This document shows, in pieces, positions 92-8,864 of a stretch of DNA of 37,981 nucleotides. The position numbers and the translations under genes were made by a program. Every line of letters starts with the position of its first letter. Within the stretch, counting starts at the first letter, position 1. Source of the DNA: Candidatus Saccharimonadota bacterium (GTDB lineage: Bacteria > Patescibacteriota > Saccharimonadia > Saccharimonadales > Saccharimonadaceae); NCBI GenBank assembly GCA_017992395.1, contig JAGOOS010000002.1, positions 1 through 37,981 of the forward strand. The letters run 5' to 3'. Below the pieces are notes generated by a model. That model ran no database searches and was not told the origin of the DNA. It saw only the letters and a program-made list of their open reading frames with translations.

Positions 92-2431
92 ATGAAACAT
101 ATACTTAAAATTATTTTGCGAAACTTTATCTCACCGATTACAATTGCTATTTTGCTGCTAGCCTTCACTCTTCTGGCTCTAGGTGAATCGCGTGATGCTT
201 GGTTTGTTAGTTCTGTGATTATATTTAATTCAATTCTAGCTTGTATCCAAGAGATTAGAGCTTATAGGATCTTAAAGAAGATTGAATTAATGACTGCGCC
301 TCATGCTAGGGTCTTGAAAAATGGCAAATACATTGAAGTTTCATATGATAAGGTTGCGCTTGGTGATAATATCTTAATTAAAAGTGGCGATGAAATTCCT
401 GCTGACGCAAAAATCATAGAATCAAAAATCTTTGAAGTTGATGAAGCATTGTTGACTGGTGAAAGTTCGCCGATTAAAAAGCGTGGCGGAGATATGGTTC
501 TGGCGAGCTCAATAGCAATATCTGGTGAAGCTAAAGCGGGAGTAGTTGCGATTGGCGATAAAACGCACGCTGGAGAGATGACTAAAAAACTAAAAGCCTA
601 TAAGCCAACACTAACTCCGTTACAAAAACGAATTTCGCATGCAATTTCCTTTTTGACCTATTTAGCATTAGGCCTGGCTGTTCTTATATTCTTCACTTAT
701 AGCGCATCGGGTGAAAATCTTGTAACGATTTTTCAGACGATTACCAGTGCTGCTGTAGTGGTCGTACCGGAAGGCCTGTTGTTGGCTAGCTCGCTGTTTT
801 TTGCATATGGATCTATTCGATTAAGCCAAGCAAAAGTCTTGGCTCAGAAGATCTCTGCGATTGAAGGTTTAGCCCTAGTAGATGTTTTAGCTACTGACAA
901 AACTGGAACTCTAACTAGCCCAGAAATAATCTTTAATAAAATTGAATTACTAAATAATGCCGATCGCGACGACGTAAAAAGAGTGTTAAAGTCGATTGCG
1001 CAAGAAACTGGCGACAACTCAACTAGTCGCGCAATTTTAAAGAAATTTAAAAAACTTGATTTGAGCCGTTTTATTTTTAAAAAACGAATGGCGTTTTCAA
1101 GTGCGCGTAAAATATCTGGACTGCAGTTCGTAGATAACGAGCAGATTCGTTCCGTTGTTTTAGGCGCTCCAGAATATATTTTAAGATTATCCGAAACAGA
1201 CGATAAACTATCTGAGAAGATCAATCAATTAAGCGAGAAAGGCTTGAGGGTTTTACTGCTAGCTGAGTTTGAAAAAACTGAAGATCCAGAAACACTATTA
1301 AGGAATAAAGAAAAATTAAGTCCACTTGCAATTATATCTTTTAAAAATGAACTTCGAGATAAAGTAGTCGAGACGGTCGATTTCTTACAAAAAAATAATG
1401 TGACAGTTAAGGTTATCTCTGGCGATAACCCAAAGACTGTTAGTTATATCGCTCGTGAGGCCGGAATAAAAGACTATGATAGTTATATTACTGGTGATGA
1501 ACTTAAAATGATGACCGATCATCAGCTTAAAGAAGCAGCCAATAAAAATGCTATATTTGCCCGAGTTCTGCCTAATCAAAAAGAACAAATCATTAAAGCC
1601 TTAAAAAATTCCGACCTACATGTTGGTATGGTTGGGGACGGCGTGAACGATGCCCTTTCAGTTAAGGAAAGTGACCTTGGAATTGCTATGTTTGACGGTG
1701 CTCCTGCTACTAGACGTGTTGCTGATTTAGTGCTTTTAAATAACTCGTTTGCTGCTCTTCCGCAAGGCATAAAAATCGGTAATCAAATTATGCAGTCGAT
1801 TGAAACGATCGCTATACTCTTTTTTCATAAAATCATTCTAGGTCTTACGATACTTCTAGCGACGATGTTCCTTGGGATGAACTATCCCTTCTTGCCGCGG
1901 CACGTTACGTATGTAAATGTGATTTTAGTTACACTACCTACGATCATCGTAACTCTATTTCCGCCAGAGCCAATCCATAGGATTAATCCAAAATATTTTT
2001 GGAAAGACACACTGTTGTCGATTGCCCCGATTGCAATACTTAGCGGCCTATCAATATCGGTTATCTACTGGATTATGGCTACTCTTAATTCTGCTAGCGG
2101 CCATACTTTGACTGATATACAGATTACCACTTCTACTGCCGTTGCGGTTGGATATTTCGGTGCACTGATGATGTTTATTAGTGGAATTATTCTTGATTTT
2201 GGTAAAGGCAAAAACGCATTCTGGAAAGGTAGAATTATTTATCTAGTTTTAATTATTGTTTTTTCAGCTGTGATTTTTCAGTCTGATTTTCTGAGTAGTT
2301 TCTTTGATTTTAGTCTGCCAAAATTTCAAAGTTGGTTCTTTGCTAGCTTTATTGTAATGGTTGTGACGGTGGCACAGTTAGCTATAGCTAAATTTATGCG
2401 AGATCGGATATCTAAGCGGCTCAATCAGTAG
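92..2431 (+). CDS. P-type cation-transporting ATPase, CtpE-like
   Basis: An ATP-driven membrane cation pump of 779 aa. Visible landmarks are the actuator motif TGES (122-125), PEGL in the fourth membrane helix (226-229), the phosphorylated Asp in DKTGTLT (D269), a GAPE nucleotide-binding motif (358-361) and the hinge GDGVND (515-520). The N-terminal cation-ATPase domain seen in the neighbouring pump is absent: membrane helices begin near residue 13. PEGL with a hydrophobic following residue, and the segment YPFLPRHVT near 600, resemble mycobacterial CtpE, which is linked to calcium uptake. The substrate here is an inference; Mg2+ or another divalent ion remains possible. The -10 hexamer 6 nt upstream fixes the start. 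Its 3' end overlaps the convergent ATPase gene by 11 bp, with no terminator between them. Confidence 0.9.
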   Translation: MKHILKIILRNFISPITIAILLLAFTLLALGESRDAWFVSSVIIFNSILACIQEIRAYRILKKIELMTAPHARVLKNGKYIEVSYDKVALGDNILIKSGDEIPADAKIIESKIFEVDEALLTGESSPIKKRGGDMVLASSIAISGEAKAGVVAIGDKTHAGEMTKKLKAYKPTLTPLQKRISHAISFLTYLALGLAVLIFFTYSASGENLVTIFQTITSAAVVVVPEGLLLASSLFFAYGSIRLSQAKVLAQKISAIEGLALVDVLATDKTGTLTSPEIIFNKIELLNNADRDDVKRVLKSIAQETGDNSTSRAILKKFKKLDLSRFIFKKRMAFSSARKISGLQFVDNEQIRSVVLGAPEYILRLSETDDKLSEKINQLSEKGLRVLLLAEFEKTEDPETLLRNKEKLSPLAIISFKNELRDKVVETVDFLQKNNVTVKVISGDNPKTVSYIAREAGIKDYDSYITGDELKMMTDHQLKEAANKNAIFARVLPNQKEQIIKALKNSDLHVGMVGDGVNDALSVKESDLGIAMFDGAPATRRVADLVLLNNSFAALPQGIKIGNQIMQSIETIAILFFHKIILGLTILLATMFLGMNYPFLPRHVTYVNVILVTLPTIIVTLFPPEPIHRINPKYFWKDTLLSIAPIAILSGLSISVIYWIMATLNSASGHTLTDIQITTSTAVAVGYFGALMMFISGIILDFGKGKNAFWKGRIIYLVLIIVFSAVIFQSDFLSSFFDFSLPKFQSWFFASFIVMVVTVAQLAIAKFMRDRISKRLNQ

Positions 2432-4934
2432 ATTTATGGCGAGTAAAGAATTTGTGGATTTCTATCACGATAATTGGCGAGATGAACGAGACTAGAGTCA
2501 CGATTACTAGATCTAAAAGCGGAACTTGCACAACGTGCAGTAATTCACCTAGTGGGCTAAATAAGGCTAAGACTTGAAGCAAGATCGCAATAAACATACC
2601 AATTACAAATTTATTATTACGGGCTTTAAAGCGATGTATGATCGACACTGTATTACTTCGGGCGTTAAGTGCGTTTCCCCACTGCATTGTAGTAAGCGCA
2701 GTAAAAGTCAGTGTGCGGGCAGCTTCTTCATTAATTTTTGACGAATAGAAAATAAAGATTGAGATCGACATAATTGCCATAAATATAGCGATTATAACCA
2801 TTCGAGTTATTATTAATTTACCTAAAATTGGCTGGTTTGGCGATTTTGGTTTTTTGGTCATTATCTCATCAGCGCCAGGCTCTAGTCCGAGCGGAATGAT
2901 TAGTGCAGTGTCCGTTACGAGGTTGATCCATAAAATCTGAACAGGAACTAGTGGTAACGGAATTCCAATTACGAGTGATCCAATCATCGTCAAAGCTTCA
3001 CCGGCGTTTGTGCCCAAGGCATAAAACAACATCCGTCTAATATTTGCTACTATCACTCTACCCTCGCGCATAGCGGTAATTATACTAGTGAAGTTATCGT
3101 CTAGTAAGATGATGTCGCCGGCATCTTTTGCGATCTCGCTTCCGCTACCCATAGCAAAGCCTACATTGGCAGCAGCCAATGCTGGAACGTCATTTACGCC
3201 GTCGCCAGTCATGGCAGTAATCTCAGTTTTTTCTAAAATCTTTAAAATTTTAAATTTTGATTCTGGAGTGATTCGAGCAAACACTCTTGCCTCTTTTACC
3301 GCACCTTCTAGTTCTTCGTCGGACAGGTTTTTTATCTGACTAGCATCAAATATCTGCTGTCTATTATCGGCTAAGCCAAGTTCATGACCGATATGGAAGG
3401 CAGTTTCTGGGTGGTCGCCAGTAATCATTCGCACCGATACCCCGGCTTGTTGCGCTTTTTGAATTGCGTTTGCACTTTCTGGTCGTAAGATATCAGCTAC
3501 AGCGACAAGACCTGAAAAATCAAATTGAGTATCTTCTGGTAAATCTTCTAAGGAATCGATTTGTTTATCTAGTGAAGCTTCAATCACAGCAATAACGCGT
3601 AAGCCCTGGCTCGCAAATTCTTGTAATTTTTTCTCGATGAGAGATTTTTCTTCAGCTGTTAACTTTGATCTAGTAATTAAAACTTCTGGTGCACCTTTGG
3701 TGCTGAGACAATATTTCTCGCCGTTTCGCCATAGGTTGCCGCTTAAAGCTAGCTCTTGATTAAAACCGAAGCTAACTAATGGTTCATGAGAAGTAAAAGC
3801 CTCACCGCTTAATTTTACGTATTCATCGAGTGCAGTATCTAGTGGATCGTGAGTTTTTTCACTGGAGTTTTTAGCTTTTGAAATAATTCGTGTAAAGTCT
3901 GTTTCTTCTTTAAAGGTAAAAGTTTTTTGTAGGGTTAGACGGTTCTCGGTTAATGTACCGGTTTTATCTGTGGCAATAGTTGTTATGACTCCCACAGTTT
4001 CGATGGCGCGTAGATTTCGAACGAGAGCTTTATGCTGAGCCATACGACGCATGCCGAGCGCTAAGATGATTGAGATTGCAATTGGCAACCCTTCAGGCAC
4101 AACCGAGACGCTTAGCGCCATCACGAACTTCAAACTTTCTAGTAAATCCATCCCGCGCCACATACTTAGTCCAAAGGCTACGATAGCTAGTATGATTGCT
4201 GCGATAATTATTTGAAAGACTAAGCGATTTATTTTAGCCTGAACTGGGCTTTCGCTCGTAATATTGCTCGAGAGTTCTGCTAATTTACCAAACTCCGTAT
4301 CGCCACCAGTCGCCGTTACGGCCATTCTTAAGTTACCTGAGATTATAAATGCCCCTTGAAAAAGCATGTTGGCTTGTTCGTAGGCTTGCAAATCTTCTTC
4401 TTCGAGTGTATCGCTATTCTTTGACATCGGCTTACTTTCACCTGTTAATAGAGATTCATTAACACGGACGGAGTTAGATGAAATTATTCGTCCATCGGCG
4501 GGGATTTTATCGCCCTCACTTAGCAGTACGATGTCGCCAGGAACTAGGAACCTTTTGTTGACTTGAGCGGTTGCCCCGTCTCGTATCACTTCCACTATTT
4601 GTTCGCTAGTCTTTTTGAGCTCGCGTAATATTCGTTCGGTCGAAAAATCTTGAACATAAGATATGATGGCGTTTATCGCTACAATTACTACGATGATAAT
4701 CGCGTCTAAGTTGTCGCCATGGAAGAAGCTAATAACGGCCGCGAAAACCAAAACTAACATAAAAGCATCCAAGAATGGGCTAAGTAGTCGTTTCCATAAA
4801 GGAGTTGATTTAACTGTGACTTCGTTAAGTCCGACTTTTTGAAGTCTTATATCAACTTCATTCTGGCTCAACCCGTTTTCGCTTGATTCTAATTTTTCTA
4901 ACGTTTCTTGACTTGATAAATTGTAATAACTCAT
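2421..4934 (-). CDS. P2-type calcium-transporting ATPase
   Basis: A full-length P2-type (SERCA-like) ATPase of 837 aa that probably exports Ca2+ from the cytoplasm. In order it has an N-terminal cation-ATPase domain (about 1-60), the TGES actuator loop (164-167), PEGLP in helix M4 (280-284), the phosphorylation site DKTGT (D323), KGAPE (413-417) and TGDGVND (576-582). Residues matching the Ca2+ ligands of SERCA are present: E281 in M4, N643 and E646 in M5, and N671, T674 and D675 in M6. Calcium specificity is therefore better supported than for the facing pump. The start codon lies 7 nt after a TATAAT, a leaderless arrangement. The gene converges on and overlaps the other P-type ATPase gene. 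Confidence 0.92.
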   Translation of the reverse strand: MSYYNLSSQETLEKLESSENGLSQNEVDIRLQKVGLNEVTVKSTPLWKRLLSPFLDAFMLVLVFAAVISFFHGDNLDAIIIVVIVAINAIISYVQDFSTERILRELKKTSEQIVEVIRDGATAQVNKRFLVPGDIVLLSEGDKIPADGRIISSNSVRVNESLLTGESKPMSKNSDTLEEEDLQAYEQANMLFQGAFIISGNLRMAVTATGGDTEFGKLAELSSNITSESPVQAKINRLVFQIIIAAIILAIVAFGLSMWRGMDLLESLKFVMALSVSVVPEGLPIAISIILALGMRRMAQHKALVRNLRAIETVGVITTIATDKTGTLTENRLTLQKTFTFKEETDFTRIISKAKNSSEKTHDPLDTALDEYVKLSGEAFTSHEPLVSFGFNQELALSGNLWRNGEKYCLSTKGAPEVLITRSKLTAEEKSLIEKKLQEFASQGLRVIAVIEASLDKQIDSLEDLPEDTQFDFSGLVAVADILRPESANAIQKAQQAGVSVRMITGDHPETAFHIGHELGLADNRQQIFDASQIKNLSDEELEGAVKEARVFARITPESKFKILKILEKTEITAMTGDGVNDVPALAAANVGFAMGSGSEIAKDAGDIILLDDNFTSIITAMREGRVIVANIRRMLFYALGTNAGEALTMIGSLVIGIPLPLVPVQILWINLVTDTALIIPLGLEPGADEIMTKKPKSPNQPILGKLIITRMVIIAIFMAIMSISIFIFYSSKINEEAARTLTFTALTTMQWGNALNARSNTVSIIHRFKARNNKFVIGMFIAILLQVLALFSPLGELLHVVQVPLLDLVIVTLVSFISPIIVIEIHKFFTRHKSTD

Positions 4935-4988: not shown

Positions 4989-6005
4989 TTATTTACTGAA
5001 ATGGAAGCCGACCTTAAATGTGGTCTTATATTTTGGTTTATTGTCAACTAAATATTTTTCATTTCTGACAGATAATGACGCATCCATTAATTCTACCAAC
5101 TTCTTCGCGATCGATAGGCCTAAACCGTGCCCACCTTGAGAATTATTCCTAGTTCTAGCTTTGTCGCACCGATAAAACCTATCAAATAGCTTATCGAGTG
5201 TTTCTTGAGACATTTCTTCGGAGTCATTTGTGACCTCTAAAACTGCTTGACGGTGTTCTCTAAAAATCCTAACTTCAACTGGATTATCTGAAGTGCGGTA
5301 CTTTAAGGCATTATCGATCAAGATCGTTACGATTTCATCTAATGCAGTTTCGTTAGCTGAAGCTAAGAAAGTTTTTGTAGAGGTATATTCAATAGCTTCC
5401 TTTGGGAGTCTATTTATCCTACTTTCAACAATCTCATTTAAGTTAACCGATGAATTTTTAAGATCGTCATCCATCTGGGAAAGTTTAAGCAGCATTTGTG
5501 TGAGCGAAGTTAGCGATCGAGCTTCTTCTAAATTACTTTGAATTACATCTTTCATTTCAGATTTTGTTGAGGATGGGTCGCGTAGTAAAATTTCAGATTC
5601 TAACTGGATTGTTGATAGGGGTGTTTTTAATTCATGGCTGACGTCGGATACGAATTGTGATTGCAGTTCGTGGGCTTTTTCTAGTGGCTCTAAAGTTTTT
5701 TTAGCTAACCAGTAGCTACCAAAACCGCCGGCAGTGAGTATAATCGCGTCCAGCCATAGGAGTGATAGACCGATTTGCTCGTTTGCTCTTTGGTTTCTGG
5801 CATTAACGATATTTCTTTTTAAATCTTCGTTATAGCTGGAATCTATTGGTGGGATATTATTTATTTCATTGTCATCGACGTTGATCGAGCTTAGAATCAC
5901 AATATTAAAAATCAAAGTAATAGCGGTTATAATTAAAATATACAACAATGTTATTCTGAATCGAGTGTTCTTAAAGACGTTGTTATCTAAAAAAGAAAAA
6001 TTCAC
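4989..6005 (-). CDS. Two-component sensor histidine kinase
   Basis: Membrane-bound sensor kinase of 338 aa. Two membrane helices (about 17-41 and 80-101) flank a short outside segment of only about 40 residues, too small for a classical ligand domain. The HisKA motif is SHELKTP with phospho-acceptor H124. The ATPase domain has the N box around N232 and the G2 box GHGLGLSIA (292-300). The G1 box is degenerate: D261 is followed by SEE rather than the DxGxG pattern, so ATP binding may be atypical. It begins with GTG, overlapping the TAG of the upstream regulator gene by one base (TAGTG), so the pair is translationally coupled. The adjacent ABC exporter suggests an envelope-stress or antimicrobial-export role, as in natKR-natAB; that is inference. 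Confidence 0.9.
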   Translation of the reverse strand: MNFSFLDNNVFKNTRFRITLLYILIITAITLIFNIVILSSINVDDNEINNIPPIDSSYNEDLKRNIVNARNQRANEQIGLSLLWLDAIILTAGGFGSYWLAKKTLEPLEKAHELQSQFVSDVSHELKTPLSTIQLESEILLRDPSSTKSEMKDVIQSNLEEARSLTSLTQMLLKLSQMDDDLKNSSVNLNEIVESRINRLPKEAIEYTSTKTFLASANETALDEIVTILIDNALKYRTSDNPVEVRIFREHRQAVLEVTNDSEEMSQETLDKLFDRFYRCDKARTRNNSQGGHGLGLSIAKKLVELMDASLSVRNEKYLVDNKPKYKTTFKVGFHFSK

Positions 6006-6688
6006 TAGTCCTGGTGCTCGCTTTCTATTTTATAGCCAAATCCACGAACGGTTTTTATGAGCTTTTCATCGAATGGTTCATCAATTTTTTCGCGTAAGAA
6101 TCTAATATACACTTCGACGTTGTTGGGCAGAATATCGGCATCGTAATCCCAAACATGCAGAATAATCTGCTCTTTATTCAATGCCCGGCCTGAATTTCGC
6201 ATTAAGTATTCTAGTAAAGCAAATTCTTTATTGGTTAATTCAATTTTTTTGCCAGCTCGTTCAACTTGGTGTATATTTAAGTCTAATGTTAGATTGCCGA
6301 CTTTTAGAACGCTTTCAATATTTACCTGAGGTCGTCTAAGGAGCGCTCGAACGCGAGCTAACAGTTCTTCGAGCGCAAATGGCTTTGTAAGATAATCATC
6401 CGCCCCCGCATCTAAGCCTTCAGTACGGTTTCGGACGCTCGAGAGTGCAGTTAATAGCAAGATTGGGGTTTGATTCTTCTCTTCTCGTAATTTTTTAGTT
6501 AGCGTTAAGCCGTCGTAGTCTCCAGGTATCATCCGATCAAGAATGATTAAATCATAATCGATCGTACTTGCCATCGCAAAAGCATCTGTACCATCAAAAG
6601 ATAAATCTACAGCGTACTTCTCTTGCTTTAAGGCCTTATCTAAGGCTCGGGCAATTTTACGTTCGTCTTCTACTACTAATATTCTCAT
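6005..6688 (-). CDS. OmpR/PhoB-family response regulator
   Basis: DNA-binding response regulator of 227 aa. The receiver domain (1-118) shows acidic residues E7 and D8, phospho-acceptor D51, T80 and K102 in the order expected of active receivers. The winged-helix output domain (about 125-226) ends in the typical VRGFGYK element. A longer frame could start at a TTG 15 nt upstream, but that lies in the promoter spacer next to the TATTAT -10 box. The ATG at 6688, 6 nt after that box, is therefore the credible start of a leaderless mRNA. Three 11-bp-spaced direct repeats lie upstream of the -10, consistent with autoregulation. It is cotranscribed with its kinase. Confidence 0.93.
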   Translation of the reverse strand: MRILVVEDERKIARALDKALKQEKYAVDLSFDGTDAFAMASTIDYDLIILDRMIPGDYDGLTLTKKLREEKNQTPILLLTALSSVRNRTEGLDAGADDYLTKPFALEELLARVRALLRRPQVNIESVLKVGNLTLDLNIHQVERAGKKIELTNKEFALLEYLMRNSGRALNKEQIILHVWDYDADILPNNVEVYIRFLREKIDEPFDEKLIKTVRGFGYKIESEHQD

Positions 6689-6694
6689 ACTACT

Positions 6695-6700
6695 ATAATA
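6695..6700 (-). promoter_or_regulatory. -10 box of the two-component operon
   Basis: TATTAT sits 6 nt before the ATG at 6688, predicting a leaderless transcript. At the normal -35 distance (6718-6723) the sequence is AGTAGT, a poor match. This fits a promoter that needs an activator bound at the repeats just upstream. Confidence 0.6.
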
Positions 6701-6710
6701 CAATATAAAA

Positions 6711-6738
6711 CTTAAAAACTACTTAAAATGTTCTTAAA
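6711..6738 (-). promoter_or_regulatory. Triple 11-bp-spaced TTTAAG repeats, likely regulator binding site
   Basis: Three identical hexamers, read TTTAAG on the minus strand, occupy 6738-6733, 6727-6722 and 6716-6711, each 11 bp from the next. The last ends 10 bp from the -10 box. Tandem direct repeats of one helical turn next to a weak -35 are the known geometry of PhoB/OmpR-family sites. The site reaches to within 2 bp of the stop codon of the exporter permease gene. Autoregulation is an inference from this layout. Confidence 0.65.
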
Positions 6739-6739
6739 G

Positions 6740-7954
6740 TTATTTTCTGGCAAAAATCTGTTTTAAGTTAACTCGTGCGCCGTAAGAAATTGTACCATAT
6801 CTAAAGATTCTAATTGCGGCTGCAATTGTGATAGCCGATGAAATTACCAAAATAACAACGCCAGCAACACCGTCAAAAACAGTCAGTGTGCCAAGCATAT
6901 TACGCAGCATTAGTGAGATTGGTGATGTTAGTGGAAATAGTGTAAAGAACTGCACAATTGGACTAGGCTCTGGTGTAGTAAATAGTGACAGTAAGAAGAA
7001 TGGCACCATTAATAACATAATTATAGCGCCAAAATAATTGTTGGCATCTTTCGCTGTTGGCATGGCAGCACCAATTCCTACGAGTAAGCCAGTAAACATC
7101 ATAAAACCAGCTAGTAGCACAGTAATACCAGTCATGATTGGCCAAAATTCCCATTTAATATTAGCAAGTAGCGGTGTGATATCGGGCAAATTCATCTGTG
7201 TAGACACAACGAAATAGCCGATAATCACAGGTAGAAATAGTACGGCTATTTGAACTAAGCCCAAGATAATAAGCGAAATAATCTTACCGACAATCAGTGT
7301 TTTTGAAGTGATGCTAGTAAGAATCATTTCAGTTACGCGATTCTCTTTTTCTTCAGTGGTGCTGGTTAGCATTTGGTTAGACAGCAACACGATTACTAAG
7401 TAGAAAATTACTAGAAAAATTCCAGGTGCTATCATCTCATATATCTGGTTATATTCCTGGCCGTCCTTATAAATTTTTTGATCAACCAAAAGACTTGAAT
7501 TGATAGCTATAATTTTATTTTGATCAACGGTTTCGATTGAAGAATTTTTAAGAAGATTTGATATAAATGTTTGGTAGCGATCGTTCTTCCCAGATTCTTG
7601 GTTTAGGCCATAGACTTCAACTTTTTCTGAAGATAAATCTTTTGGCACAAAGTAATAAGCATCTAACTCGGCGCTCTTCACCTTTTCGATAGAAGCTTGT
7701 TTATTAGTAGAGGTTCTGCCGCCCAAATCTTCAATTGCTTTTGGCGAAACAATTTGGCTTTCGTCTGTAATCTCAAACGAAAACGTTTCTTTGGCTAGTT
7801 CTTCCATTTGGGCGGTTGTTTGCTGTCCGGTGAAATATATAATACCGCCCATCACGAGCCATATAGCTGGCAGTGACAAAACACCAATCCAAAAAGATGG
7901 TTTTTTGAAAGTTCGGATTAATTCAAATTTTATAACGGTCCATAGATTATTCAT
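6740..7954 (-). CDS. ABC-2 type exporter permease, NatB-like
   Basis: Membrane subunit of an ABC exporter (404 aa). One N-terminal helix (about 21-41) is followed by an outside domain of roughly 130 residues. A C-terminal block of five or more helices follows, containing the cytoplasmic coupling segment EEKENRVTEMILTS typical of NatB/YhaP permeases. The start chosen, MNNLW at 7954, has a clear AAGGAG ribosome binding site 6 nt upstream. A longer reading from 7987 would lack one and overlap the ATPase gene by 41 bp instead of 8. It partners the ATPase immediately upstream. The substrate cannot be read from sequence; Na+, antimicrobial peptides and lipids are all possible. Confidence 0.88.
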   Translation of the reverse strand: MNNLWTVIKFELIRTFKKPSFWIGVLSLPAIWLVMGGIIYFTGQQTTAQMEELAKETFSFEITDESQIVSPKAIEDLGGRTSTNKQASIEKVKSAELDAYYFVPKDLSSEKVEVYGLNQESGKNDRYQTFISNLLKNSSIETVDQNKIIAINSSLLVDQKIYKDGQEYNQIYEMIAPGIFLVIFYLVIVLLSNQMLTSTTEEKENRVTEMILTSITSKTLIVGKIISLIILGLVQIAVLFLPVIIGYFVVSTQMNLPDITPLLANIKWEFWPIMTGITVLLAGFMMFTGLLVGIGAAMPTAKDANNYFGAIIMLLMVPFFLLSLFTTPEPSPIVQFFTLFPLTSPISLMLRNMLGTLTVFDGVAGVVILVISSAITIAAAIRIFRYGTISYGARVNLKQIFARK

Positions 7955-8864
7955 TTTTTGCTCCTTTTTGCGAATTTTCGTCACCATAGATCTCTAAGAA
8001 GATTTCATTTAAGGTCGATCTTTGTACATCGAATCGATTGATTTTAATATCGTTATCGATCAATTCTTTTAAAATTCCTTGAGAATCGTTTTTAGGTGAT
8101 AGTTCAGCATAGTTAGCCTCTTTTTTAACTATGTCATAATTTGGACTCTCATTAAGCTCGCCGCTAAATTCAATCACAATCCTTTGTTTGCCGAATTGAT
8201 CACGAATTTCATCAATAGTCCCATAAGCTTTGCGCTTACCATCTTTAAGAAGGAGCGCTCGATTACAAATTCGTTCAACTTCTTCCATCTGGTGAGTTAC
8301 CATGACTATAGTTGCGCCACGTTGATTTTCTTTGGCAATTATATCCATTAAAAGTTGTCGATTAACAGGATCAAAGCCTTTAGTTGGCTCGTCTAAAATT
8401 AATAGATCTGGCGAGTTGATAATAGTCATGCCAAGCTGAATTTTCTGCTGCTGGCCGCCAGATAGTCGGTCAATCTTTAGTTTGGCTTTATCTTCCAGGC
8501 CAACTCTTTTTAAATATCCCATTGACCATTTGCTAGCAGCCTTTTTGGTCATGCCTTTAAGTTGGCCAAAATATGTCATAACGTCAATAACGGACTCTTT
8601 TTTGTATAAGCCGCGTTCTTCGGGCAGATAGCCCAAAATATTCTTTTTGCCTGGGGCGAAAACTTCTCCGTTTATTAAAAGTTCGCCACTATCAGCTTGA
8701 TATAAGCCTAAAAGTGTTCGAATAATCGAAGTTTTGCCACTTCCGTTGCTTCCAAGTAGGCCAAAAACCTCTCCCTTTTTTATTTCAAACGATAAATCGT
8801 CGATGATCTTCTTTTTTCCAAAAGATAGACTAAAATTCTTAATTGAAATTGCATTTTCATTCAT
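7947..8864 (-). CDS. ABC exporter ATP-binding protein, NatA-like
   Basis: ATPase subunit (305 aa) of the exporter whose permease follows with an 8-bp overlap. Walker A GSNGSGKT (38-45), signature LSGGQQQK (134-141), Walker B LLILDEP (154-160) and the switch His in VTHQMEE are intact, and the C-terminal accessory region of about 80 residues is typical of NatA/CcmA-like exporters. The ATG at 8864 is preferred over one 9 nt upstream, because the upstream ATG overlaps a TATAAT box from which transcription would start almost exactly at 8864. With the permease it forms a two-gene unit beside the two-component system, which may control it. Confidence 0.92.
   Translation of the reverse strand: MNENAISIKNFSLSFGKKKIIDDLSFEIKKGEVFGLLGSNGSGKTSIIRTLLGLYQADSGELLINGEVFAPGKKNILGYLPEERGLYKKESVIDVMTYFGQLKGMTKKAASKWSMGYLKRVGLEDKAKLKIDRLSGGQQQKIQLGMTIINSPDLLILDEPTKGFDPVNRQLLMDIIAKENQRGATIVMVTHQMEEVERICNRALLLKDGKRKAYGTIDEIRDQFGKQRIVIEFSGELNESPNYDIVKKEANYAELSPKNDSQGILKELIDNDIKINRFDVQRSTLNEIFLEIYGDENSQKGAKNE

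Follow-up and report, generated by a model that had tools for sequence, protein, structure and literature searches.

A two-component system of the OmpR/PhoB type, encoded within the window (the whole stretch of 37,981 nucleotides analysed here), probably activates both the operon that encodes it and a response that guards protein quality in the envelope, acting through an adjacent operator built of TTTAAG half-sites. This reading draws on the position, spacing and conservation of the half-sites, on a shared promoter layout, and on the co-occurrence of regulator and site across genomes. The system is ordinary in kind; it is also clean, well conserved and testable. To our knowledge, how bacteria with such tiny genomes, most of them uncultivated, control transcription is nearly unexplored, and no regulator-operator pair was found described for Saccharibacteria in the literature. 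With the operator, its cognate regulator and a small target set defined, tests need only purified protein and synthetic DNA and no culture of the organism.

The Regulator Operon and Its Promoter

The response regulator gene (6005..6688, minus strand) encodes a protein of 227 amino acids with a receiver and a winged-helix domain, whose recognition helix is NNVEVYIRFLREKI. The protein passes the Pfam gathering scores for PF00072 and PF00486 (receiver and Trans_reg_C), and tandem half-sites with an 11-bp period, a further feature of the OmpR/PhoB class, are present near its own promoter and those of its candidate targets. Its closest relative by sequence from a named organism belongs to a WWE3 bacterium (61%); this and the small size of the genome point to Patescibacteria, perhaps to Saccharibacteria. 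The sensor histidine kinase gene (4989..6005, minus strand) overlaps the end of the regulator gene; its product is predicted to span the membrane twice and to expose a short extracytoplasmic loop. Downstream of it lies a gene for a P-type cation ATPase (2421..4934, minus strand), which is possibly carried on the same transcript. The upstream neighbour, an ABC-2 permease gene (6740..7987, minus strand), stops just short of the most distal half-site and is absent from this position in most relatives. As a separate observation, the region 92-4934 of the window holds two convergent P-type cation ATPase genes (92-2431 on the plus strand and 2421-4934 on the minus strand), which overlap by 11 nt.

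Ahead of the regulator gene, the minus strand carries TTTAAG at 6738-6733, 6727-6722 and 6716-6711. The sequence-only reading had claimed three identical hexamers at exact 11-bp steps, and the letters at 6711-6738 bear this out; the coordinates 6695-6738 that it gave for the repeats take in the -10 element as well. Read on the minus strand, the promoter is TTTAAG-AACAT-TTTAAG-TAGTT-TTTAAG-N10-TATTAT-N6-ATG. Its distal half-site (6733..6738, at -50 from the ATG) is an extra, species-specific repeat, while the middle one (6722..6727, at -39) and the proximal one (6711..6716, at -28 and 10 nt before the -10 element) form the conserved operator core. The -10 element TATTAT (6695..6700, minus strand) is assigned from its sequence and from the equal spacing at htrA, at a GreA-like gene and in relatives. 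No TTGACA-like -35 hexamer was seen 16-18 nt upstream of TATTAT, so that the earlier description of a -10 box standing 10 bp from the repeats and lacking a -35 also holds. The regulator ATG is at 6688, 6 nt past TATTAT; because this distance is so short, the regulator mRNA is expected to be leaderless, with transcription probably starting at or beside the ATG. The exact triple repeat occurs only once within the window.

A Shared Promoter Layout and the Proposed Activation

A scan of the genome (all 56 contigs, 656,519 bp, 37.8% GC) revealed three perfect promoters, the first being that of the regulator operon itself (6695-6738, minus strand). The second precedes the gene of an HtrA-type protease with Trypsin_2 and PDZ domains (C18:23110); it reads TTTAAG-N5-TTTAAG-N10-TAAATT-N6-ATG, and its geometry is that of the regulator promoter, to the base. 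The third stands before a GreA-like gene (C42:7237), with GATAAT at 10 nt, followed by a leader with a Shine-Dalgarno sequence. The gene after it is Glt_symporter-like; its match, to a truncated copy, falls just under the Pfam cut-off. The prediction that the repeats would give a searchable regulon motif was thus confirmed by the htrA and GreA-like promoters, and the predicted regulon is small and centred on HtrA.

Regulators of the OmpR/PhoB class occupy tandem half-sites of 11 bp in head-to-tail orientation. Activators of the PhoB type take the place of the -35 element, with tandem 11-bp repeats situated about 10 nt from the -10. The operator geometry described here would fit activation from a promoter without a -35, and the initial comparison with PhoB/OmpR-type sites is upheld by the 11-bp tandem, the 10 nt to the -10 and the recurrence of this layout at three promoters of the same genome. 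We infer that a dimer of the phosphorylated regulator would bind two head-to-tail TTTAAG half-sites, the third TTTAAG of this species offering one additional subunit position. The bound dimer would occupy the place of the -35, 10 nt from the -10, and draw sigma factor and RNA polymerase to a promoter that has no usable -35. Activation would then extend to the regulator-kinase operon, the HtrA protease gene and the GreA-like/transporter operon. The putative targets are HtrA and, in relatives, genes for small secreted, FtsX-type and DsbA-like proteins, which makes protein-folding stress in the envelope the most likely task of the system and presumably its signal.

The regulator might instead bind and repress, its dimer lying over the -35 region, blocking polymerase and exerting negative autoregulation. 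The site does overlap the -35 position, and a repressor seated on the promoter would give a similar picture. However, there is no -35 hexamer at that place to block, and the 10-nt gap to the -10 is fixed in all three own-genome promoters, as it is in CiaR-activated promoters, which makes repression unlikely.

Conservation of the Operator and Its Co-occurrence with the Regulator

The regulator was compared with a set of 30 orthologues (55-100% identity). In 20 of them NYTMAG-N5-NYTMAG starts between -42 and -37 relative to the ATG, a placement for which shuffling predicts 0.0025; the strict tandem is missing from the regulator position in the other 10. The tandem stays before the regulator gene while the upstream neighbour gene changes between relatives, so the comparison of intergenic regions that had been suggested as a check speaks for the site. 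Only 2 of the 30 orthologues, one of them from this genome, add a phased third half-site at -50, and the triple repeat is therefore a local elaboration. The conserved operator consists of two repeats, NYTMAG-N5-NYTMAG. The three-repeat site of the sequence-only reading consequently stands in its tandem core, which is conserved, and not in its third copy, which is nearly unique to the species. Similarly, TTTAAG as the motif is exact in this genome, but among relatives the half-site varies between TTTAAG, TTTCAG, TCTCAG and ATTCAG. In four orthologues (L103, L109, L113 and L114) the recognition helix has VEA, not VEV, and those with a site show only TTCAG half-sites; this pairing suggests a residue-to-base specificity change.

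HtrA homologues are present in 55 of 61 genomes, in a few as weak matches only. Among the genomes with readable DNA upstream of htrA (46 regions), the tandem site occurs at htrA in 19 of the 32 that bear the regulator and in none of the 12 that lack it (Fisher p = 3.4e-4, a value that is optimistic because the genomes share ancestry). It is also found in one of the two genomes with only a distant regulator. Shuffling predicts the htrA tandem in 0.17 of the 46 regions; the strict form is missing at htrA in 13 of the 32 genomes with the regulator. This co-occurrence is the strongest evidence on who reads the site, and by sequence comparison a role of the adjacent regulator, rather than of another factor, appears well supported. 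In substance, the sequence-only prediction that this regulator would bind the repeats and activate its own operon is likewise supported.

Several relatives carry more than one OmpR-type regulator, any of which could bind the same DNA. That such a paralogue is the main binder is slightly less probable still than repression: the site lies at the adjacent regulator's own gene in most genomes even though the neighbouring gene changes, and the htrA site is missing where a regulator of the adjacent type is missing.

Motif Statistics

Chance expectations were derived from genome-sized second-order Markov sequences. These hold on average 0.5 exact TTTAAG-N5-TTTAAG pairs and the genome holds 5; N5 is the commonest spacing of TTTAAG pairs among those of 0-20 (5 versus no more than 2 for each other spacing). 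With N10 and a -10 element added, the pair is present 3 times against 0.03 expected, and the strict promoter pattern has no occurrence in the reversed genome. Although the genome is 62% A+T and a one-mismatch TTTAAG pair is not rare within the window, phased T/A runs arising by chance in AT-rich intergenic DNA are a very improbable explanation, contradicted by these counts, by the conservation at the orthologues and by the co-occurrence at htrA.

Some matches were rejected as operators. The exact pair at C4:4888 was taken as chance because it lies away from any promoter and is oriented against the adjacent genes. Weaker matches before gyrB (C55) and before a duplicated small protein (C16) were dropped, each having at least one repeat mismatch together with off-spacing.

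Comparison with Known Regulatory Systems

Streptococcal CiaR acts on an operator of the form TTTAAG-N5-TTTAAG, which stands ten nt ahead of the -10, and htrA is among the genes that it regulates most strongly (PMC3091779). The operator, the 10-nt spacing to the -10 and the htrA target are all common to CiaRH and the present system: NTTAAG-N5-TTTAAG is found here ten nt before the -10, and a site in promoter position would place htrA in the regulon. In contrast, the recognition helix departs from the CiaR pattern VVEVYVSK(V/I)RKKL, being NVEVYIRFLREKI here and VVEVYVSKVRKKL in CiaRH, with 6 of 13 residues identical. Predicted leaderless promoters, the GreA-like target and the TTCAG/CTCAG half-site variants of relatives likewise distinguish the system from CiaRH. 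We do not call the regulator CiaR, because its helix has only this partial identity; by analogy, it can be said to work like CiaR.

PmrA binds CTTAAG-N5-NTTAAT (PMC3973317), and TTAAG-type half-sites are therefore used in several branches of the OmpR family. Enterobacterial PmrA/BasR, with its similar boxes, is among the best full-length solved relatives of the regulator by sequence, but it is known for polymyxin resistance and has other targets. The PmrA identity was rejected at 205.8 bits against the cut-off of 330 for NCBIfam NF007928. The heavy-metal CzcR/SilR/CopR identity, though the best NCBIfam match, was rejected at 235 bits against 279 for TIGR01387, and RppA was likewise rejected on its NCBIfam cut-off; the regulator scores under every named-family cut-off shown by NCBIfam.

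In E. coli, CpxRA controls the HtrA-family protease degP, DsbA and small periplasmic proteins. The present system resembles it in its HtrA-family target and in the DsbA-like and small secreted candidates of relatives; it differs in that the CpxR site is GTAAA-N5-GTAAA and the CpxRA kinase has a large periplasmic domain. In PhoB-type promoters an 11-bp tandem replaces the -35, as here, whereas the half-site sequence and the targets are different.

We lean somewhat towards a conserved envelope-stress regulon of reduced genomes, in which a CiaR-type operator, its spacing and htrA recur far from the streptococci and which includes a divergent GreA-like factor and leaderless promoters. If this is true, the link between regulator, site and target is either very old or a product of convergence, and the CiaR-htrA match raises the question of the age of that regulatory link.

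The Wider Regulon in Relatives

The 61 genomes hold 61 promoters of the HYTMAG type whose -10 follows after 10 nt, compared with 14 for the reversed pattern. With 7-mer half-sites at the correct spacing, 198 genomes of the family gave 29 matches against 10 in the control, while a family-wide spacing one base shorter (N9 after the 7-mer) gave 6 against 5, which is background. Given this background, single matches may be due to chance.

Operators of this type precede MacB/FtsX-type or FtsX-resembling ABC permease genes in G007, G015, G044 and G030 (L244, L245, L263, L268). The promoter pattern also stands before genes of an FMN_bind protein in G044 and a DUF2202 protein in G018, and in G001 before DsbA-like thioredoxin and glutaredoxin-like genes (L270:1004-1036, L269). 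In G049, G042 and G059 it is found before small secreted proteins whose genes lie immediately ahead of the regulator gene. These proteins (L233, L235 and L239) are charged and helical, each with its own operator copy, and Pfam gave no clear family for them.

Operator-type promoters precede GreA-like genes in G002, G004, G017 and G022. The GreA-like protein (L264:2494-2526, plus strand; L005:1501-2041) has a GreA_GreB C-terminal domain and scores well under the GreA equivalog cut-offs. In G022 its gene follows the regulator-kinase operon immediately, and a P-type ATPase gene comes next.
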